A stretch of 64,000 bases of DNA from Williamsia sp. DF01-3. Its GTDB lineage: Bacteria; Actinomycetota; Actinomycetes; Mycobacteriales; Mycobacteriaceae. Where the stretch lies: the NCBI RefSeq assembly GCF_023051145.1, contig NZ_JALKFS010000005.1, positions 434,001-498,000 on the forward strand, written 5' to 3'. A program made the translations under genes and the position numbers. Shown here in pieces: positions 36,768 to 45,444 of this stretch (position 1 is the first letter of the stretch; every line of letters starts with the position of its first letter). The notes beneath the pieces are model-generated. The model worked only from the letters and a program-made list of their open reading frames with translations. It was not told where the DNA came from and ran no database searches.

Positions 36768-36965
36768 ATGACCGAGATCGGAGAGCCAAGCGATATCCAG
36801 CCAGTCGAAGATGTGCTCGAGCAGCAGCAGGACGTGGATCCGGACCAGGCCGATGTCGCCGAAGACGCCGGTGGCAGTGGGCCGCTCGACGCGGACCCGG
36901 CCGACGTCCGAGAACAGGAGCAGGTGGTCACCGCACCGCTGGAAGACGAGTACCGCGAGGACTGA
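36768..36965 (+). CDS. Small acidic hypothetical protein
   Basis: 65 residues, very acidic (many Asp/Glu, no Cys or aromatic cluster). GGGG precedes the ATG at 36768. The pattern VLEQQQDVDPDQAD with LDADPADVREQEQ and a DEYRED end resembles small conserved proteins seen in other actinobacteria. Probably disordered. Function unknown. Confidence 0.6.
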   Translation: MTEIGEPSDIQPVEDVLEQQQDVDPDQADVAEDAGGSGPLDADPADVREQEQVVTAPLEDEYRED

Positions 36966-37034: not shown

Positions 37035-37844
37035 TCAATCGGCGCTGGTTGTTGCCCCGAGGAGATCACGTACCCGGTTGGCGACCGCGATGAACTCGGG
37101 TCGTTCCATGGTCGCGCTGTAGTCGCGCTCCGCCGGAAGGTCGACGTCGAGGATCTCCACGATGCGACCGGGCCGCGGACTCATCACCACCACTCGATTC
37201 GCGAGATACACCGCTTCGGCGACCGAGTGGGTCACAAGCATCACGGTGGTGCCGGTCTCTCGCCAGATCCGATGGAGTTCGACGTTCATCCGCTCACGAG
37301 TGAGCGCATCCAACGCACCGAAGGGTTCGTCCATCAGCAGCACCTCGGGCTCGTGCAACAGCGCCCGGCACAGCGAGACGCGTTGTTGCATACCACCGGA
37401 CAATTCATGGGGGAGCGCACCCTCGAAACCGGTGAGTCCGGTCATCTCGATCAGCTGATCGGCTTTCGCGGCGGCAGCGCGTTTGTTCATGCCGCGCATC
37501 TCGGCCTGGATCAAGATGTTCTTGCGAACGGTCCGCCACTCGAGAAGGGCCGCTCGCTGGAAGACATAGCCGATGCCCCTCTGCGGGCCTTTGACCTCGC
37601 TGCCGCGCAGCCGCACACTGCCGTGAGATGCGTTGGTAAGTCCCGCAACCACCTTCAGCAACGTTGACTTTCCGCAACCGGACGGTCCGGCGATCGTGAC
37701 GAACTCGCCTTCACGCACGTGCAACTGCACGTCGTCGAGCGCGGTGACCTCACCGCGCTTGGAGGAGAAGTGCACGCTCAGGTTCTCGACGGACACCGCC
37801 GAATCTGTCACGGTGTTCGGGGGTTCGATAGTCGTGGCATTCAT
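37035..37844 (-). CDS. ABC transporter ATP-binding protein (SsuB/TauB-like)
   Basis: 269 residues. Walker A GPSGCGKST, Q-loop YVFQRAALLEWRTVRKN, signature LSGGMQQRVSLCRAL, Walker B VLLMDEPFGALDALT and H-loop MLVTHSVAEAV. The DALTR segment and length place it in the nitrate/sulfonate/taurine importer class. It is the last gene of a permease-binding protein-ATPase operon (10 bp after the binding protein). The upstream promoter carries a LacI-type operator, linking import to the catabolic operon at 41.1 kb. Confidence 0.92.
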   Translation of the reverse strand: MNATTIEPPNTVTDSAVSVENLSVHFSSKRGEVTALDDVQLHVREGEFVTIAGPSGCGKSTLLKVVAGLTNASHGSVRLRGSEVKGPQRGIGYVFQRAALLEWRTVRKNILIQAEMRGMNKRAAAAKADQLIEMTGLTGFEGALPHELSGGMQQRVSLCRALLHEPEVLLMDEPFGALDALTRERMNVELHRIWRETGTTVMLVTHSVAEAVYLANRVVVMSPRPGRIVEILDVDLPAERDYSATMERPEFIAVANRVRDLLGATTSAD

Positions 37845-37854
37845 CGTCGCTCAC

Positions 37855-38877
37855 TCACTTGGTATCGGTGGGGGTGAAGGCCGAATCCCAGTACTGCGAG
37901 GGTTCGCCGGCGTTCTCGAGCAGACCGGAGTCGCTCAGCACCGCGATCGTCGCGGCCCAGTCTTCGTCGGTGTTGACTCCGGGTGCCTCACCTTTGGTGC
38001 CGGCGGTCGAGAGCAGCGGAATGGTTTCCGTCCACTGCTGCAGCAGAACTTCCTTTGGCGGCATCTGGGGATCCTTGCCCTCCATCGCGGCCACTGCTGC
38101 CTCGGGGTTGGCTGCGGCGGCGGTGAAGGCTTCGCTGGTGGCGTCGACCATTGCCTGCACCAGTTCGGGTGAGCTCTCGATCATTCCGTTGTTGGCGATC
38201 AGGCCGTTGCTGTAAAAGTTCAGTCCCACATCGGAATAGCGGAGGTAACGCATGTCGCGCCCGCTCTTGTTGGCGATGGTCGGGCCCTGGTCATGTGCGA
38301 ATCCGATGAGCCCGTCGACCTTTCCTGACAACATGGCCGCGACCTTGCCGGCGGCGTCGAGGCTCTGTTGCTTCACCTGGTCGGCGGGCACACCGGCCTT
38401 CTCCAGGTAGATCGGGAACGTCGTGGTCGGGGCGTCGCCTGCCGAGACTGCAATGGTCTTGCCGGCCAGGTCGGCCGGTTTCGTGATGCCGGAATCGGCG
38501 TAGACCTGCACCGCCGATGGCGTTGTCTGCAAGAACACCCCGACGCTCTTGATCTTGACGCCCTTGCCGATATTGCTCACCACGGCAGGGGTGTCGGCCC
38601 AGCCGAAGTCGGTCTGGTTCGAACCGGCGGCCTGCGCGGTCTTGGTCGATCCCTGCCCGGCCTTGATCGTGAGGTCGATTCCGTGTTTGGCGAAAATGCC
38701 CTCCTGCACCCCGTAATAGAACGGAGCGTGCTCGCCGTAGGGGTACCAGTTGAGCATCAGCGATGTCGCGGTGGCCTGGCCGTCGGCGCCGGGCTTCTTC
38801 TCCGCGGCTCCACCACCGCAGCCGGCGAGTGCGAGTGTCGTCGCAATGGCCGCGACCACAAGAGTTTTCAGTTTCAT
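37855..38877 (-). CDS. ABC transporter substrate-binding lipoprotein (THI5/NMT1-like)
   Basis: 340 residues from an ATG behind GGAG. Lipobox LALAGC with Cys20. The fold is a periplasmic-binding type 2: LNWYPYGEHAPFYYGVQEGI, then FAKHGIDLTIKAGQGSTKTA, WADTPAVVSNIGKG and YADSGITKPADLAGKTIAVS. This is the NMT1/THI5-like and SsuA-type family, which usually binds pyrimidines, sulfonates or similar small nitrogen/sulfur compounds. Its presence beside sugar-type enzymes makes the ligand worth testing. 33 bp separate it from the permease. Confidence 0.9.
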   Translation of the reverse strand: MKLKTLVVAAIATTLALAGCGGGAAEKKPGADGQATATSLMLNWYPYGEHAPFYYGVQEGIFAKHGIDLTIKAGQGSTKTAQAAGSNQTDFGWADTPAVVSNIGKGVKIKSVGVFLQTTPSAVQVYADSGITKPADLAGKTIAVSAGDAPTTTFPIYLEKAGVPADQVKQQSLDAAGKVAAMLSGKVDGLIGFAHDQGPTIANKSGRDMRYLRYSDVGLNFYSNGLIANNGMIESSPELVQAMVDATSEAFTAAAANPEAAVAAMEGKDPQMPPKEVLLQQWTETIPLLSTAGTKGEAPGVNTDEDWAATIAVLSDSGLLENAGEPSQYWDSAFTPTDTK

Positions 38878-38909
38878 GTTCAATCTCCGTTGAGTGAGGT
38901 TCGAGTGTT

Positions 38910-39785
38910 TCAGACGGCCGATGCGCCGACAGACGCGGTGGATCGGCGCGAGGCATGCCATGGGATGAGCAGCTTCTCGGCGAGCTCGATGATCATGAAC
39001 AGGATGATCCCGAGCAGGGACATGATGATCAGCGCCGCGAACAGCATTGCGGTGTCAATGTTTCCGTTGGCCTGCAGGATCACGTAGCCCAGACCCTCGT
39101 TGGCCCCCACGAACTCGCCGACCACGGCACCGGTGACGGCGAGCGTCGCAGCGATCTTCAGTCCGGACAGGAGCTGCGGAAGAGAGGCAGGAAAGCGCAC
39201 CTTGGCGAAGGTCTTCCAGCGTCCGGCGCCCATCGTGGAGGTGAGCTCGACGATCTCCGGATCCACCGAGCGCAGACCGGCCATCCCGGAGATGACGATG
39301 GGGAAGAACGCCATCAGCACGGCGACAAGGATTTTGGGGCTGGGTCCGAAGCCGAGCCACACCACGAACAGTGGCGCGATCGCGATCTTCGGGATGACCT
39401 GTGCGAACAGGATCAACGGGTACATCGTCTTCTCGACGCTCGGCGAGTAGAGCATCATCACCGCGACTGCTTCGCCGATCACGGCGGCGATGAGGAAGCC
39501 GGCGACGGTTTCGTAGGTGGTGACCCAGGTGTGGGTGGTGAGGTACGAAGCGTTGTCCACCATCGTCTGCCAGGTGTCGCCCGGTGACGGAAGGATGTAC
39601 GGCGCAACCAGTTCGAACTTGGTCACCGCCCACCAGGCGGCGACGAGCACCGCTACCAGGGCGAGCGGCCGCCAAAGGCCGGACCAAGTATTTCGGAACG
39701 AGGGAAACCGTCGGTGACGCGTCGGCGTGAGGGGTGACGCCTGCAACGCAGCAGAACGGATCTCGACCGACGTTGTTACCGCCAT
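38910..39785 (-). CDS. ABC transporter permease (SsuC/TauC-like)
   Basis: 291 residues from the ATG at 39785 after AGGAC; a longer start at 39875 would run through the operator. About six membrane helices and the EAA-type cytoplasmic loop SVDPEIVELTSTMGAGRWKT, then FAKVRFPASLPQLLSGLK. Homologous in layout to sulfonate/nitrate importer permeases. First gene of the operon, so it sits just downstream of the promoter and operator described here. Confidence 0.9.
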   Translation of the reverse strand: MAVTTSVEIRSAALQASPLTPTRHRRFPSFRNTWSGLWRPLALVAVLVAAWWAVTKFELVAPYILPSPGDTWQTMVDNASYLTTHTWVTTYETVAGFLIAAVIGEAVAVMMLYSPSVEKTMYPLILFAQVIPKIAIAPLFVVWLGFGPSPKILVAVLMAFFPIVISGMAGLRSVDPEIVELTSTMGAGRWKTFAKVRFPASLPQLLSGLKIAATLAVTGAVVGEFVGANEGLGYVILQANGNIDTAMLFAALIIMSLLGIILFMIIELAEKLLIPWHASRRSTASVGASAV

Positions 39786-39827
39786 GAGGAGTCCTAAAGC
39801 TAGTAGTGATGCAGACCGAGGTCCGCG

Positions 39828-39841
39828 GGAATGCGCTTTCC
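39828..39841. promoter_or_regulatory. LacI-type operator O1 (ABC promoter)
   Basis: GGAATGCGCTTTCC, a near-perfect GGAA-N-GCGC-N-TTCC dyad. Together with GAAGCTGAG after it, it matches the second site at 41004 at all but two of 23 positions. It lies directly downstream of the predicted -10 of the ABC operon, an ideal position for repression. Confidence 0.85.
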
Positions 39842-39853
39842 GAAGCTGAGGCC

Positions 39854-39883
39854 AACGTAATGTGATCGCGACCACACTGTCAA
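39854..39883 (-). promoter_or_regulatory. Predicted promoter of the ABC operon
   Basis: Read on the minus strand: TTGACA at 39883-39878, an 18-bp gap and TACGTT at 39859-39854 (TANNNT-type -10). Operator O1 begins 12 bp further on. Position and sequence fit a repressible sigma-70-type promoter. Confidence 0.6.
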
Positions 39884-39897
39884 TAGGCTGGGAGGAA

Positions 39898-40935
39898 TCA
39901 GCTGTTCAAGGCGCTGCTGTGACGCAAGATCACGGTGCCCGGAACGAACTCGTGGGCACACTGCCCAGCGGCTGCTTCGTCGAGGGCCAGATCCACTGCA
40001 CGCCGGCCGATGTCGACCAACGACAGGGCGACTGTGGACAGGCTGGGGACATGATCGCGCAGGGTGGGGATGTCGTCGAAACCGGCCACGCAGACATGTT
40101 CGGGCACACTGAGTCCCAGCTCGCGCCATGCGGCGATGGCACCTATCGCCATCACGTCGGTGACCGCGAAAACGCAGGGTGGCCGGCCTCGAGGACTCTG
40201 CGGACTCAACTCCAGCGCCGCGGCGAGTCGTCGTGCCGCGCTGTATCCCCCGTCCCGTGAGAAGTCCCCGGAAACCTCGATGATGGGGCTGAGCCCGTGC
40301 CTGCTCAGGGTATCCACGAATCCGTTTCGGCGGTCGACGGACGTGCGGATGTTGCCCGGTCCGCCGATGATCGCGAATGTGCGGTGTCCATGCTGGTAGA
40401 GGGCTTCGGCCAATTGTCCTGAGGCCGACCAGTTCTCCGGCTCAACGGCGGCTCCGAACGACAGGGGCTGGCCGATGACGACCACCTTGCCGCCGTTCTC
40501 GCGATAGACCGCGAACTCCTGCTCGAGGTCGCGGTCGAGGTCTCCGCTCTGGCGGGACCCGGCCAAGATGATGGCGTCTGCCCGGTGGGAGATGAATGTG
40601 CTGACCGACTGACGCTCGACATCGAAATCGCGTTCGGTGCTGGCGAGCAACACCAGCTTCCCCGCTGCCCGGGCCTGCGCCTGAACGCCTCGGACGATGG
40701 AGGAGAAGTACGGGTCGGCCACATCGTGCACCACCAGGCCGATCAGTCCGGTCGACGACCGCGCCAACGCCTGGGCCTGCGCATTCGGGACGTACCCCAG
40801 CTCGGCGGCGGCAGCGCGAACACGGTCGGCAACACCCACGCCGGGAACGCGTGAAGACCCGTTGAGCACCCGCGAAGCGGTTGCCTGCGAGACGCCCGCG
40901 GCCGCCGCGACGTCCTGCAATCTCACCGCCGCCAT
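39898..40935 (-). CDS. LacI-family transcriptional regulator of the catabolic cluster
   Basis: 345 residues. LacI-type HTH: VRLQDVAAAAGVSQATASRV, then LNGSSRVP and the hinge ALARSSTGLIGLVV. The sugar-binding domain follows: HDVADPYFSSIVRGV, GQPLSFGAA, DRRNGFVDTL and FAVTDVMAIGAIAAWRELG, then FDDIPTLRDHVPSLSTV. No truncation. A LacI-type operator (41004) lies 69 bp upstream of its start, and another lies just beyond its 3' end, so it likely represses itself, the ABC operon and the divergent dehydrogenase operon. The inducer should be the imported compound or a first product of it. Confidence 0.93.
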   Translation of the reverse strand: MAAVRLQDVAAAAGVSQATASRVLNGSSRVPGVGVADRVRAAAAELGYVPNAQAQALARSSTGLIGLVVHDVADPYFSSIVRGVQAQARAAGKLVLLASTERDFDVERQSVSTFISHRADAIILAGSRQSGDLDRDLEQEFAVYRENGGKVVVIGQPLSFGAAVEPENWSASGQLAEALYQHGHRTFAIIGGPGNIRTSVDRRNGFVDTLSRHGLSPIIEVSGDFSRDGGYSAARRLAAALELSPQSPRGRPPCVFAVTDVMAIGAIAAWRELGLSVPEHVCVAGFDDIPTLRDHVPSLSTVALSLVDIGRRAVDLALDEAAAGQCAHEFVPGTVILRHSSALNS

Positions 40936-40974
40936 CTCAACGACCTTCCGCCTCTGCGTGGCTCGATGTGCCTA

Positions 40975-41003
40975 TTGACCAATCGATGAGAGCAGCATAG
41001 CTT
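40975..41003 (+). promoter_or_regulatory. Predicted promoter of the dehydrogenase operon
   Basis: TTGACC at 40975-40980, 17-bp spacer, TAGCTT at 40998-41003 (TANNNT-type -10). Operator O2 begins at 41004, the very next base, mirroring the ABC promoter. Confidence 0.65.
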
Positions 41004-41017
41004 GGAAAGCGCATTCC
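41004..41017. promoter_or_regulatory. LacI-type operator O2 (dehydrogenase operon and lacI)
   Basis: GGAAAGCGCATTCC, the exact reverse complement of O1, followed by the same GAAGCTGAG. Located between the divergent lacI and dehydrogenase genes, overlapping the start region of the predicted promoter. It would block the dehydrogenase operon and could also mediate autoregulation. Confidence 0.85.
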
Positions 41018-41145
41018 GAAGCTGAGTTGTGAATTCCACTCGGGTGACCTTTCCCGCCCGTGTGTTCCCGTCCATCCCTTTCAGCTCTGCCGCGCTCCGG
41101 GCGGCCGCCGATCGAGCATCGGCTGTTCAAAGAAAAGGCATTCTC

Positions 41146-42303
41146 ATGTCCCCCTCGACTCGTACCCTGCGCATCGCCATGAATGGCGTCACCGGCCGCA
41201 TGGGCTACCGCCAGCACCTCATGCGATCGATACTTCCCATTCGTGACTCCGGCGGCCTGCTCCTGGCCGACGGTAGCCGTGTCCAGCTCGAACCGATCCT
41301 CGTCGGGCGCAACGAGGCAAAACTGCAGGAACTGTGTTCTCTGCACGGCATCACCGAATACAGCACCGACGCATCGGCGGTCATCCACGATCCGAGCACC
41401 GACATCTACTTCGACGCCCAGGTGACGTCGCGGCGGGCAGAGGCGCTGGCCGCTGCGATGAAGGCGGGCAAGCACATCTACACCGAGAAGCCGACCGCCG
41501 AGACGCTCGCGCAGGCTGTCGAACTCGCCCGTATCGGGGAGAACGCCGGGGTCACCACCGGTGTCGTCCACGACAAGCTCTATCTCCCAGGTCTGGTCAA
41601 ACTGCGTCGCCTTGTCGATGAGGGATTCTTCGGACGGATCCTCTCTCTCCGCGGCGAGTTCGGCTACTGGGTGTTCGAGGGCGACGGTCAACCGGCGCAG
41701 CGCCCCAGTTGGAACTACCGTGCCGAAGACGGCGGCGGCATCGTCGTGGACATGTTCTGCCACTGGAACTACGTGCTCGAGAACATCCTCGGAAAAGTCG
41801 AGTCGGTGACCGCCAGAGCTGTTACCCACATCCCTACCCGTTGGGACGAAGACGGCAACGAATATCCCGCCACCGCAGACGATTCCGCGTACGGCATTTT
41901 CGAGATGGAGAACGGCGTCGTGGCACAGATCAATTCCTCGTGGACCGTGCGGGTTCATCGCGATGAACTGGTGGAGTTCCAGGTCGACGGTACCCACGGC
42001 TCAGCTGTGGCCGGACTGCGTAACTGTGTGGCCCAGCACCGGTCTCACACACCCAAACCCGTCTGGAACCCCGACCTGCCGGTGACTGAACCATTCCGGG
42101 ACCAATGGCTCGACGTGCCTGCAAACGCCGACCTCGACAACGGCTTCAAACTGCAGTGGGAGGAGTTCTTACGAGACGTCATCGCCGAGCGTCCACATCG
42201 GTATGGACTGTTGTCGGCGGCCCGCGGTGTGCAACTGGCCGAACTCGGCCTGCGGAGCTCGGCCGAGGGCCGCCGTCTCGCCGTGCCGGAGATCACGCTG
42301 TGA
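41146..42303 (+). CDS. Gfo/Idh/MocA-family dehydrogenase
   Basis: 385 residues from the ATG at 41146 with AAAGG upstream. N-terminal Rossmann region AMNGVTGRMGYRQHLMRSI (GxTGxMG), then KHIYTEKPTAETLAQAVELA (the family EKP motif with catalytic Lys) and GVVHDKLYLPGLVKLRRLVD. The C-terminal domain has GGGIVVDMFCHWNYVLENIL, with the conserved Asp/His pair. It oxidises or reduces a sugar or sugar acid with NAD(P). First gene of a four-gene operon with 4-bp overlaps throughout. Confidence 0.9.
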   Translation: MSPSTRTLRIAMNGVTGRMGYRQHLMRSILPIRDSGGLLLADGSRVQLEPILVGRNEAKLQELCSLHGITEYSTDASAVIHDPSTDIYFDAQVTSRRAEALAAAMKAGKHIYTEKPTAETLAQAVELARIGENAGVTTGVVHDKLYLPGLVKLRRLVDEGFFGRILSLRGEFGYWVFEGDGQPAQRPSWNYRAEDGGGIVVDMFCHWNYVLENILGKVESVTARAVTHIPTRWDEDGNEYPATADDSAYGIFEMENGVVAQINSSWTVRVHRDELVEFQVDGTHGSAVAGLRNCVAQHRSHTPKPVWNPDLPVTEPFRDQWLDVPANADLDNGFKLQWEEFLRDVIAERPHRYGLLSAARGVQLAELGLRSSAEGRRLAVPEITL

Positions 42304-43481
42304 CCGTCACAGATGCGCACCTGTCCATTGCTCTGCCGGCCAGGGGCAACCATGTGCTCGTCGAACCCGGGGAATGGACGAAGCCGTCATCGCCCATCAC
42401 CTCTCGCAAGGTGTACGCGGCAGCCCATGTGATCCCACGCGCGACGGCAGACAACACGCCCGGTGCACCCGCCGACATCGACTGGGAGGCCACGCTGGCC
42501 TACCGGCACGAACTGTGGTCGTACGGGCTAGGGGTCGCCGATGCAATGGACACCGCCCAACGGGGTATGGGCCTCGACTGGGCGGCGACCGCCGAGTTGA
42601 TCCGACGATCGGGAGCCGAGGCGGCAACCGTCGGGGGGATGCTCGCGTGCGGCGCGGGCACCGACCAGCTCGACATCGACACTCTCCCATCGGGAGCCGC
42701 CGGTCTCACCGCAGTCCTGGACGCCTACCGCGAACAAATCGCAGTGGTCGGTGAGTCGGGCGCCACGATCATCATCATGGCGTCTCGAGCGCTGGCTCGT
42801 GTGGCACGGTCGCCCGACGACTATGTGGCCGTGTACTCCACTTTGCTGGCCGAGGTGGATCGACCGGTGATACTTCACTGGCTCGGGACAATGTTCGATC
42901 CTGCACTGGAGGGCTATTGGGGCAGCGATGACCTCGAGCGCGCGACGGCAGTGTTCCGCGAACTGATCGAGGCCAACAGCTCCAAGGTCGATGGTGTGAA
43001 GGTCTCCCTGCTCGACGCACAGCACGAGATCGCGCTTCGACGCGCGCTGCCGCCGAAAGTGCGGATGTACACCGGTGACGACTTCAACTATCCCGAGTTG
43101 ATCATCGGGGATGAACGCGGCCATTCCGACGCGCTGCTCGGTATCTTCGCGGGTATCTACCCGGCGGCGTCCACGGCCCTGCAGGAGCTCGACCGCGGGA
43201 ATGTCGCACGTGCGGAACAGATCTTGCAGTCCACCCAGGAACTCGGCCGCCACATTTTCGCCGCCCCCACCTACTACTACAAGACCGGAATCGCGTTCTT
43301 GTCATGGCTACGCGGCAGACAGTCGGGGTTTTCCATGGTGGGCGGGCTCGCGTCCGGCAGGAGTGTGGAGCATCTGACGACCTTGTTCGTCCTGGCCGAC
43401 AAGGCGGGATTGCTCACCGACCCGGAGCTGGCAATTCATCGTATGGGTCTGTACCTCGAACTGAACGGAGTCCGATCGTGA
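42300..43481 (+). CDS. DUF993 protein (dihydrodipicolinate-synthase-like aldolase)
   Basis: 393 residues from a GTG at 42300, overlapping the previous stop by 4 bp. It belongs to DUF993, a TIM-barrel family distantly related to dihydrodipicolinate synthase. Segments: DWEATLAYRHELWSYGLGVA, ERDRPVILHWLGTMFDPALE-type strand (LAEVDRPVILHWLGTMFD), SKVDGVKVSLLDAQHEI (Lys near 240, possible Schiff base) and RMYTGDDFNYPELIIGDERG. Expected activity is aldol or retro-aldol cleavage of a keto-acid or keto-sugar, but no characterised member is known to me. It is the likely carbon-splitting step of the pathway. Confidence 0.85.
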   Translation: MTVTDAHLSIALPARGNHVLVEPGEWTKPSSPITSRKVYAAAHVIPRATADNTPGAPADIDWEATLAYRHELWSYGLGVADAMDTAQRGMGLDWAATAELIRRSGAEAATVGGMLACGAGTDQLDIDTLPSGAAGLTAVLDAYREQIAVVGESGATIIIMASRALARVARSPDDYVAVYSTLLAEVDRPVILHWLGTMFDPALEGYWGSDDLERATAVFRELIEANSSKVDGVKVSLLDAQHEIALRRALPPKVRMYTGDDFNYPELIIGDERGHSDALLGIFAGIYPAASTALQELDRGNVARAEQILQSTQELGRHIFAAPTYYYKTGIAFLSWLRGRQSGFSMVGGLASGRSVEHLTTLFVLADKAGLLTDPELAIHRMGLYLELNGVRS

Positions 43482-44344
43482 CGACCACAGCTGTACGGAC
43501 ATCTCCCTACGACCTCGACAATCCCTACGCGACACTGTCTCTGAACACCAAGACAGTCAACTCGTGGACTTTGGCAGAAGCTGTGGACGGGGCGGCCAGT
43601 GCCGGTCTCGGCGCAGTCGGTCTGTGGCGAGATCGGGTACAAGAGACCGGCGTCGCTTATGCGGCAAAACAAGTGGCGGATGCAGGTCTGCGAGTGTCGA
43701 GTCTGTGCAGGGGCGGATTCATGACCGGTGTGCACGATGACGGTCTCGACGACAATCGTCGCGCACTCGATGAGGCTGCCGAACTCGGGGCTCCCGAGCT
43801 GGTGATGGTGATGGGCGGTCTGCCGGACCGCGATCTCATCGGGGCACGCACGCGGGTGGAAGACCGTCTGGCGCAGCTGGTTCCCTATGCGATCGACCGT
43901 GGTGTCCGCATCGCGCTCGAGCCGCTGCATCCCATGTTTGCTGCCGATCGGGCGGTGATCTCCACCCTGGGACAGGCGTTGTCAATGGCATCACCGCACC
44001 CCGTCGAAGCCGTGGGAGTTGTTGTGGACACCTTCCACGTCTGGTGGGATCCGGAGCTGTACAACAAGATTCGGCAGGCCGGGAAAGAGGGCAGGATCAG
44101 CTCCTACCAGGTATGTGACTGGTTGGTGCCGATGGAAGCCGACCCCTTGCTCTCGCGCGGAATGATGGGTGACGGAGTCATCGATTTCGACACCATCGGA
44201 ACGTGGGTGCGAGCGGCCGGCTACCAGGGCGATGTCGAAGTGGAGATCTTCAACGAGAAAGTGTGGTCAACCGACGGCCACCAGGTGATCGAGGACATGA
44301 AACAGCGGTACCGCGATCTCGTCTTGCCGCCGCTGGCCGGATGA
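43478..44344 (+). CDS. Sugar phosphate isomerase/epimerase-like TIM-barrel protein
   Basis: 288 residues from a GTG at 43478 (4-bp overlap). AP-endonuclease-2 fold: AASAGLGAVGLWRDRVQETG, ELVMVMGGLPDRDLIGA, RGVRIALEPLHPMFAADRAV with the metal Glu/His, GVVVDTFHVWWDPELYNK and ISSYQVCDWLVP. A metal-dependent isomerase, epimerase or hydratase acting on a ketose or keto-acid is expected. The residues for metal binding (Glu, His, Asp) appear intact. Its place between DUF993 and glycerate kinase suggests it handles one product of the cleavage. Confidence 0.87.
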   Translation: MTTTAVRTSPYDLDNPYATLSLNTKTVNSWTLAEAVDGAASAGLGAVGLWRDRVQETGVAYAAKQVADAGLRVSSLCRGGFMTGVHDDGLDDNRRALDEAAELGAPELVMVMGGLPDRDLIGARTRVEDRLAQLVPYAIDRGVRIALEPLHPMFAADRAVISTLGQALSMASPHPVEAVGVVVDTFHVWWDPELYNKIRQAGKEGRISSYQVCDWLVPMEADPLLSRGMMGDGVIDFDTIGTWVRAAGYQGDVEVEIFNEKVWSTDGHQVIEDMKQRYRDLVLPPLAG

Positions 44345-45444
44345 GAGTTCTGGTCGCGCCCGACTCGTTCAAGGGATCGCTTGGCGCGGTGGACGTCGCG
44401 CACGCCTTGAGCAGAGGCTGGGCCCGGGCACGCCCGGGTGACGAACTCGTCCTCATGCCACAGGCTGACGGCGGTGAGGGAACGCTGGCGGTGATTGCCC
44501 AGGCGATCGGAGATGCCACGTGGTCCGCCCACGACACCGCAACCGGTCCCCACGGGCGTCCGGTGTCAGCCCGCTGGCTGAACATGCCTGACGGTCGCGC
44601 TGTGGTGGAGCTCGCCGAGTCGTCGGGAATCGCCTACCTCGATCGGCTCGACCCACTCGGCGCGACGTCTCGCGGACTCGGCGAGGTGATCCGACGCACC
44701 GACTGTTCGAGACTGACTGTGGCGCTGGGCGGCTCCGCCTCGACGGACGGAGGATTGGGTGCTCTACGTGCGCTTGGCCTCGAAGTCTTCGACCGGGAAG
44801 GCAGGCCGGTTCCCGAAGGCGGGGCGGGTCTCCTCGTCGCCGAGCGTGTCGACACGTCCTCGTTACTCAGTCCACCGGCCGACGTCGAGCTGCTTGCCGA
44901 CACCTCCGCCGTGCTGTTCGGTCCGGCGGGAGCGGCGAGCGTGTTCGGGCCACAGAAAGGCGCCGATGCACAGATCGTTGAAGAGCTGGACAGGGGACTG
45001 CGTCGATGGGTGGATCTGTTGGCCGACGCCGGTCTCGCTGCCGATCCCTCGATGCCCGGAATGGGCGCGGCGGGTGGCGTCGCATTCGGCCTGGCGGCGG
45101 CGTGGCGAGCACGGATCACCCCAGGTGCAGCGCGGGTGTGCGGCCTGACCGGTCTCACGTCGGCCGCGCCGAAAGCGGATCTGATCATCACCGGCGAGGG
45201 CAGGTTCGACCACACATCGCTGACCGGCAAGATCGTTGGGCACATCGTCTCCCTCGCCGCTGAAAGCCACGTCTCGGTGGTAGTGGTTGCCGGCCAGGTC
45301 GACGCGGGCATGGACGTGCCGACCTATTCGCTGACGGAAATGGCAGGGTCCACAACGCAAGCGATGAAGGCCCCGTCGTACTGGCTGACCGAGATCGGCC
45401 GACGAGCAGCTCAACGCGCAGACGAACTCGTGCACCAGGCGTGA
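44341..45444 (+). CDS. Glycerate 2- or 3-kinase (GlxK/GarK type)
   Basis: 367 residues from an ATG overlapping the previous stop (ATGA). MRVLVAPDSFKGSLGAVDVA at the start and LMPQADGGEGTLAVI are the glycerate kinase type 1 motifs; the middle has VALGGSASTDGGLGALRALG and FGPQKGADAQIVEEL. The C-terminus has DLIITGEGRFDHTSLTGKI. Converts glycerate to phosphoglycerate with ATP, feeding lower glycolysis. It fixes the likely end product of the operon. Confidence 0.92.
   Translation: MRVLVAPDSFKGSLGAVDVAHALSRGWARARPGDELVLMPQADGGEGTLAVIAQAIGDATWSAHDTATGPHGRPVSARWLNMPDGRAVVELAESSGIAYLDRLDPLGATSRGLGEVIRRTDCSRLTVALGGSASTDGGLGALRALGLEVFDREGRPVPEGGAGLLVAERVDTSSLLSPPADVELLADTSAVLFGPAGAASVFGPQKGADAQIVEELDRGLRRWVDLLADAGLAADPSMPGMGAAGGVAFGLAAAWRARITPGAARVCGLTGLTSAAPKADLIITGEGRFDHTSLTGKIVGHIVSLAAESHVSVVVVAGQVDAGMDVPTYSLTEMAGSTTQAMKAPSYWLTEIGRRAAQRADELVHQA

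Follow-up and report, generated by a model that had tools for sequence, protein, structure and literature searches.

A probable LacI-controlled sugar catabolic unit around the uncharacterized DUF993 enzyme family in Williamsia sp. DF01-3

Within a 64,000-nucleotide stretch of the genome of Williamsia sp. DF01-3 (contig NZ_JALKFS010000005.1, positions 434,001 to 498,000; here called the window), lacI, two dedicated predicted operators, an ABC importer and a four-gene enzyme operon form one closed regulon (positions 37035-45444 of the window; Table 1). The enzymes are a Gfo/Idh/MocA-type dehydrogenase (Gfo), a protein of the family DUF993, a xylose-isomerase-like TIM barrel protein (TIM) and a glycerate kinase. 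The cluster is a probable LacI-controlled sugar catabolic unit around an uncharacterized enzyme family, not a new kind of system. We propose, with a confidence just short of even, that through this regulon the cell takes up and degrades a single nonphosphorylated, sugar-like compound, for which an organic anion, for instance a sugar acid, is the likeliest candidate. Open reading frames and profile searches confirmed the coordinates and families that the initial annotation had given for all eight genes, with one correction: for the binding protein, ATG 38877 is the most likely start, instead of 38961, as it yields a lipoprotein signal (MKLKTLVVAAIATTLALAGC) and has a credible ribosome site. Each of the four enzyme genes shares 4 bp with its neighbor, which suggests that they are translationally coupled.

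The two predicted operators contain a 14-bp core, GGAAWGCGCWTTCC, and one core is the reverse complement of the other. With up to three mismatches allowed, a 23-bp stretch common to both operators (GGAAWGCGCWTTCCGAAGCTGAG) was matched twice in the window and not once in each of 100 shuffled sequences. The core alone, searched with two mismatches, matched the window three times, compared with an expectation of 0.63, and 6 of 100 shuffles reached as many; this test is weaker, and the evidential weight therefore lies on the 23-bp match and on genome counts. For the latter, the exact core was counted in the window's genome and four cluster-bearing relatives (three genera in all). The window's genome has two sites, both in the cluster, and each of the four relatives (4/4) also has exactly two; base composition predicts 0.05 to 0.08 sites per genome, and the reversed core, used as a control, occurred in none of these five genomes. 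When 41 genomes were scanned, six contained the exact core, and those with two sites (G000, G006, G008, and G013) all carry the cluster. In G001, which has one site and lacks DUF993, and in G038, where DUF993 is near none of the three sites, the one stretch read per genome showed no regulon genes, and these sites, considered as regulon members, were for that reason counted as chance; close to the operator-like site of G001 are an ATPase of the CUT2 type and a homolog of enoyl-CoA hydratase. Two genomes, G028 and G035, have DUF993 and lack the operator core.

The recognition segment of LacI was compared between loci with and without the operator. Among 92 operator loci, 82 had the segment TASR and 10 had no aligned segment, while the segment in 44 loci without the operator was TVSR (33 loci), TASR (10 loci) or SASR (1 locus). 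After removal of duplicates, all 57 operator loci for which the segment could be aligned had TASR, compared to TVSR in 33 of the 44 loci without an operator. As judged from these alignments, the LacI recognition helix covaries with the operator. The claim of the initial annotation that two near-identical operators join the genes into one LacI regulon is thus borne out by the genome counts, the 23-bp match against shuffles and the helix-operator covariation, and at the regulatory level, the evidence is stronger than had been claimed. The catabolic account is plausible; its order of steps and substrate class are what we infer.

Used as a probe across other genomes, the core was present in 31 of 32 genomes with related clusters, mostly at one or two sites (five and seven in two large genomes), and the reversed core was present in none. 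The site lay within 600 bp upstream of a Gfo ortholog in 20 of the 30 listed loci from these genomes. The remaining ten include a second TIM gene (L140) and a transketolase operon (L145, L149, and L155), and five of the ten (L146, L150, L158, L159, and L161) gave no match to the reference genes. Among 396 genomes of another order, 71 contained the core and three (G467, G578, and G752) the reversed core; here, 28 of 30 listed loci had the site 6 to 125 bp upstream of a Gfo ortholog, with 74 to 82% identity to the Gfo of the window. Forty larger regions were picked from this 396-genome list to span several families and multi-site genomes, and in 27 of them the site stands immediately before Gfo. 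Of the other 13, five adjoin a TIM homolog (L219, L220, L223, L225, and L228), one precedes transketolase (L234), three are near sugar-binding-protein genes (L217, L232, and L239), three are at other genes (L229, L230, and L231), and one (L227) is at a different Gfo-family gene with a LacI gene adjoining. Sites in genomes of family f22 adjoin genes for rhamnogalacturonan lyase, phosphorylase, GH42 and a sugar-binding protein and may belong to other LacI proteins. A dedicated operator that is mostly found once or twice per carrier genome, and mostly before the same dehydrogenase, provides a cheap map of pathway genes across genomes and an aid to strain choice and inducer search; because the switch recurs in many other bacteria, the orphan pathway is now testable.

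Some operator sites lie at genes of central sugar metabolism. The core precedes transketolase in Arthrobacter-type genomes (L167, position 6455; L168, 6280; L234, 7776), where it has the form GGAATGCGCATTCC, which was not found at gfo in the window's group. It adjoins ctaB at a contig end in L166 (position 180), also of Arthrobacter type, and lies between transaldolase and PGI in Nesterenkonia (L169, 6243), and no pentose gene was identified near the remote sites L163, L164, and L165. The transketolase and transaldolase sites tie an orphan LacI regulon, unexpectedly, to the pentose phosphate pathway.

Next, the neighborhoods of DUF993 were compared at 114 places, comprising the 80 closest loci, 20 further genome regions and 14 annotated plasmid records, a biased choice among 147; 97 places had at least 6 kb on both sides. 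In the 80 closest loci, DUF993 had Gfo, the most conserved member of the cluster, no more than 3.5 kb away in 78 cases and TIM in 79. The corresponding numbers were 19 (Gfo) and 20 (TIM) in the further regions and 7 and 12 in the plasmid records. The center of a glycerate kinase gene lay within 8 kb of DUF993 at 19 of the 114 places (5/80, 8/20, and 6/14; some matches are close relatives), where about 0.6% would be expected by chance from two kinase loci in a 5.6-Mb genome. The position of the kinase gene varies: it follows TIM (window, L029, L050, L092, and L113), lies beyond the importer ATPase (L010, L011, and L107), or follows lacI (L034) or DUF993 (L088 and L101). Kinases from six loci of other genera share 37 to 63% identity with that of the window. 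Recurrent links of DUF993 to LacI and to glycerate kinase, whose absence would have counted against the initial annotation, support it. An NMT1 binding protein lay within 8 kb of DUF993 at 12 of the 114 places, as found with a hidden Markov model built from two sequences, and at L111 by Pfam; beyond the window's group, the organisms are Rhodococcus, Nocardia, Mycolicibacterium, Micromonospora, and Chelatococcus. The Micromonospora locus (L050, 6199-13088) has permease, substrate-binding protein, ATPase, Gfo, DUF993, TIM and glycerate kinase in one run, in a genome without the exact operator core.

To gain insight into the function of DUF993, its predicted structure (predicted local distance difference test [pLDDT], 89.9) was compared with solved structures. 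Foldseek placed 4dnh first (TM score, 0.92), followed by DHDPS and NAL (sialate lyase) structures; ranks 2 to 50 had E values of 5e-10 to 1e-8 and TM scores, by target, of 0.71 to 0.84. On this model, DUF993 has the Schiff-base aldolase (DHDPS/class I) fold, in keeping with the aldol-type cleavage that had been suggested for the enzyme set. Residue K234, on barrel strand 6 (E230-236), shows no variation in any of 131 aligned rows (rows overlap) and occupies what we take to be the place of the Schiff-base lysine in DHDPS/NAL enzymes. A DUF993 match is present in 29 genomes out of the 396 sampled from the phylum; among 72,556 plasmid records, 147 have one. Seven DUF993 clusters, mostly in proteobacteria (L089, L093, L097, L098, L099, L100, and L101), contain a CoA-transferase along with varying sets of acyl-CoA dehydrogenase, enoyl-CoA hydratase, SDR, aldo/keto reductase, GMC and aldehyde dehydrogenase genes. 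They perhaps represent a second, undescribed pathway type, and the DUF993 family overall therefore probably serves more than one substrate. Here is a structure that is solved but unexplained; if the aldolase reading is true, an enzyme class and a glycerate-forming route would be added to the carbon metabolism of soil actinobacteria and rhizobia.

The other enzymes of the operon were examined similarly. The only close solved relative of Gfo is 3oqb, which is uncharacterized (E value, 3e-137). The EKP motif of Gfo at 114-116 is present in 188 of 188 aligned rows, and D202 and H206 are present in 187 of 187 (rows overlap); we take these to be the catalytic positions. The TIM model (pLDDT, 91.7) has IolI, UlaE, tagatose/allulose 3-epimerases and YcjR among its closest characterized folds, and its weak NCBIfam matches include the 5-keto-L-gluconate epimerase IolO. 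Residues E148 and D184 are conserved in 147 of 147 rows and E256 in 146 of 146, and position 211 is Q in 127 rows and H in 20, which makes E148, D184, Q/H211, and E256 the likely metal ligands. An inositol pathway, considered on the basis of Gfo and the IolI-like fold, was not adopted; no search for iol genes was made. The glycerate kinase scored above the TIGR00045 subfamily cut-off and did not reach the glycerate 2-kinase and 3-kinase equivalogs; a second glycerate kinase locus exists elsewhere in the window's genome. The presence of the kinase in the operon points to glycerate as a product.

These features can be arranged into a provisional pathway. Release of LacI would allow the importer to take up the compound, Gfo would oxidize a secondary alcohol to a ketone, and TIM would shift the carbonyl or invert an adjacent center. 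DUF993 would form a Schiff base via K234 and carry out a retro-aldol cleavage, the three-carbon product (tartronate semialdehyde/hydroxypyruvate or glyceraldehyde) would be converted to glycerate, and glycerate kinase would yield 2- or 3-phosphoglycerate. One concrete scheme would run from an aldonate to a 5-keto-aldonate (Gfo), its epimer (TIM), and tartronate semialdehyde plus dihydroxyacetone (DUF993). The step before glycerate would need a reductase or aldehyde dehydrogenase encoded elsewhere in the genome; near DUF993 in some genomes lies a 2-hydroxyacid dehydrogenase (L112) or an aldehyde dehydrogenase (L088, L110, and L113) that could make glycerate. Further clues to an acid come from alphaproteobacteria, where Gfo-DUF993-TIM adjoins tripartite-tricarboxylate or NMT1 importers and enolase-superfamily genes (one enolase match being under the Pfam cut-off), and from loci L109 and L110, over which KdgD-type, talarate/galactarate-dehydratase-like (under cut-off), aldehyde dehydrogenase and kinase genes are spread. 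A wider proposal, possible if somewhat doubtful, is that DUF993 is a new class I aldolase branch cleaving nonphosphorylated keto sugars or keto acids without the usual pyruvate end. Under the same proposal, operator-Gfo-TIM, DUF993 and glycerate kinase would form a widespread, undescribed lower pathway from an environmental sugar acid or glycoside to glycerate without prior phosphorylation, the same LacI also acting over a pentose phosphate operon in some Arthrobacter-type genomes.

Several findings weigh against the sugar acid route. The operon contains no reductase for making glycerate. By our reading of strand order, the loop after strand 2 of DUF993 is an invariant MDTAQRG in place of the usual DHDPS pyruvate-carboxylate loop, GTTGE (GxxGE), so that DUF993 may act on something other than a typical 2-keto-3-deoxy acid. 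Comparison of profiles showed no relation between DUF993 and five DHDPS-family proteins. Other DUF993 clusters carry sugar importers (CUT1 and CUT2), and in several genomes operator-Gfo-TIM adjoins XylA-like and XylB-like genes, pointing to a neutral pentose. TIM directly follows Gfo, without DUF993, in 25 of the 28 operator-linked Gfo orthologs of the other order, and DUF993 directly follows in 3 (L174, L193, and L199). A genome-wide search for DUF993 in 28 genomes that have the operator, mostly with Gfo-TIM at their loci, found none in 24 of 24 from families f100, f90, and f95, which indicates that Gfo and TIM work without it there; it was present in 4 of 4 in family f101. This absence is no family-wide rule, as outside that set of 28, Gfo is followed by DUF993 in G677 (f100; L203) and in G487 and G737 (f95; L199 and L238). 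Since 25 operator-linked Gfo orthologs have TIM directly behind them and no DUF993, operator-Gfo-TIM is probably the oldest unit, and DUF993, the kinase and the importer would have come or gone along individual lineages. The four-enzyme set, which the initial annotation had treated as the unit, is not the one that is conserved, given these 25 orthologs and the kinase count of 19 in 114.

The substrate clues disagree, favoring an acid, a pentose or a glycoside. Were the substrate a glycoside cleaved oxidatively, Gfo would oxidize its C3, TIM would eliminate from or epimerize the 3-keto sugar, DUF993 would act on either this keto sugar or the group set free, and the aglycone or a side product would be glycerate. 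The Gfo and TIM families also form levoglucosan and phlorizin operons in excerpts of PMC7676230, PMC10066097, and PMC10628242. TIM resembles, among others, the 3-keto-glucoside 4-epimerase YcjR of the E. coli Ycj chemistry, and an alpha/beta-hydrolase (L020) and an alpha-fucosidase-like gene (L206) lie near operator units. The best NCBIfam match of Gfo is levoglucosan dehydrogenase, but the match is weak, at 75 bits against a cut-off of 650, and membership in the levoglucosan pathway was rejected because this cut-off of the curated LgdA model was missed. The window's operon also lacks a second, LgdC-like Gfo, and the route to glucose requires neither an aldolase nor a glycerate kinase; we regard a glycoside substrate as doubtful.

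An oxidative xylose-type pathway, as annotated for plasmid pAO1, would make Gfo a sugar 1-dehydrogenase and have DUF993 split 2-keto-3-deoxy-pentonate into pyruvate and glycolaldehyde, with the kinase serving glyoxylate/glycerate salvage. The pAO1 order is CUT2 importer-GMC-AldH-Gfo-DUF993-glycerate kinase, with a D-xylose catabolism Gene Ontology (GO) term on AldH, and XylA-like genes occur, within the stretches covered, in 6 of 11 f100 regions (L205, L206, L207, L210, L211, and L212) and in the Arthrobacter-type L233, L235, and L236 (the names XylA and XylR were assigned by us from sequence, and XylB-type by Pfam FGGY). The cores at transketolase, ctaB and transaldolase/PGI described above are consistent with such a pathway, but the transketolase core is not of the gfo form and L163, L164, and L165 are near no identified pentose gene. 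The pentose reading is weakened in the window's genome because XylA has only a partial match there, at the 30% level, as in G006 and G008; there is none in G013 and G090. Since the cluster moreover has no pentonate dehydratase and an NMT1-type importer is no known xylose importer, we consider this pathway unlikely. Very unlikely, in our judgment, is a general carbon-scavenging regulon in which the operators and importer are real and the enzymes act on different substrates, joined by shared control only. Such a regulon would fit the strong variation in composition, as lineages may differ in importer type and may lack glycerate kinase or DUF993, but the 4-bp overlaps between all four enzyme genes, the single run in Micromonospora and the closeness of Gfo and TIM to DUF993 in 78 and 79 of 80 loci argue against it. 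Breakdown of one sugar-like compound, most likely an organic anion, is the reading we prefer.

The closest known arrangement is the pAO1 "xylose" cluster of Paenarthrobacter nicotinovorans (L088), which like the window has Gfo, DUF993 and glycerate kinase; on pAO1 the three are consecutive, and identity to the window's proteins is 68% for DUF993 and 75% for Gfo. Where the window has the NMT1 importer, pAO1 has a CUT2 sugar importer together with GMC oxidoreductase and AldH, and neither a TIM barrel nor LacI is among the features listed in its 25-kb stretch. A 2013 paper reportedly deals with the pAO1 xylose pathway. In Sinorhizobium meliloti, SMc04130 (TIM barrel; 3ju2/3qc0) and SMc04132 (DUF993; 4dnh) have solved structures with no function given. 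SMc04132, the oxidoreductase SMc04133 and the binding protein SMc04135 stand together in one table of regulated genes in an excerpt of PMC12542648, where, unlike in the window, SMc04135 is labeled an amino acid or peptide importer component; SMc04134 is named as a regulator in a passage of PMC11387232. The levoglucosan (lgdA-B1-B2-C) and phlorizin (GlycDH-OGE) operons combine, like the window, oxidoreductases, PF01261 TIM barrels and importers, with LacI among the regulators near lgdA; in the excerpts cited above, neither DUF993 nor glycerate kinase is named for them. DHDPS and N-acetylneuraminate lyase aldolases resemble DUF993 in fold and, as the model suggests, may do so in the lysine on strand 6; they differ from it in Pfam family, in the loop after strand 2 and in the lack of a profile relation to the five members compared. 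A literature search on the pathway, gene set, structures and SMc0413x genes, with subscription journals mostly outside it, gave no description of the pathway and no mention of DUF993, PF06187, 4DNH or the exact operator letters. The statement of the initial annotation that no described pathway has this combination holds only in part, since pAO1 carries Gfo-DUF993-glycerate kinase with a sugar importer, a GMC oxidoreductase and an AldH that has the xylose GO term.

Table 1. Genes and predicted operators of the cluster (positions in the window)
Feature	Position	Strand	Evidence or remark
ABC importer ATPase, taurine/sulfonate/nitrate type	37035..37844	-	PF00005, 115 bits
NMT1/THI5-type substrate-binding lipoprotein	37855..38877	-	PF09084, 156 bits
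ABC importer permease	38910..39785	-	PF00528, 109 bits
Predicted operator 1, before importer operon	39828..39841	.	43 bp from permease start
LacI-family regulator	39898..40935	-	PF00356 and PF13377; recognition segment GVSQATASRVLNGSS, of the kind common to operator-bearing loci
Predicted operator 2, between lacI and gfo	41004..41017	.	69 bp from lacI
Gfo/Idh/MocA NAD(P) dehydrogenase	41146..42303	+	PF22725, PF02894, PF01408
DUF993, DHDPS-fold putative class I aldolase/lyase	42300..43481	+	PF06187, 591 bits (cut-off 24)
Xylose-isomerase-like TIM barrel (AP_endonuc_2), putative metal-dependent isomerase/epimerase	43478..44344	+	PF01261, 102 bits
Glycerate kinase, PF02595 type	44341..45444	+	PF02595, 327 bits; TIGR00045, 286 bits (cut-off 168)

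All three importer parts belong to families that they have in common with the Tau, Ssu and ThiY importers, but the window's importer fell under the curated cut-offs in all models listed. For the ATPase, the best NCBIfam models were SaoA, TauB and NtrCD (among the best 25 of 188 models); for the permease, SaoP, TauC and SsuC were closest; and the importer reached 83 bits with the SsuA family, whose cut-off is 163.5. The closest PDB sequence to the binding protein is 3ix1 (pyrimidine, FAMP-binding; E value, 4e-18). As far as such profile matches go, curated libraries assign the cluster importer to no substrate. A sulfonate, considered because of the importer type and of a PF03601 gene under the operator in family f101, was set aside, as the importer is under the sulfonate cut-offs and PF03601 resembles KdgT too.

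In two f101 genomes (L220, position 7754; L223, 8143), one operator is common to a TIM homolog and a neighboring PF03601 (YeiH/KdgT-related) membrane protein. In an f101 genome (L222, 8093-11138), an ABC set lies opposite Gfo-DUF993 across the operator; it is of the MacB/HlyD export type, and its candidacy as the importer was dropped for that reason. Scans for promoters and terminators gave counts equal to or under those of shuffled controls. Just past the importer end of the cluster, a very acidic short open reading frame of 65 codons (36768-36965, + strand) was noted by eye. Far from the cluster in the window's genome (L126; G000:C5:4016445-4017320), a KdgD-type gene (416 bits) is followed by what by eye resembles an enolase-superfamily sugar acid dehydratase, a pair that suggests that an oxidative aldarate route may exist in this genome.

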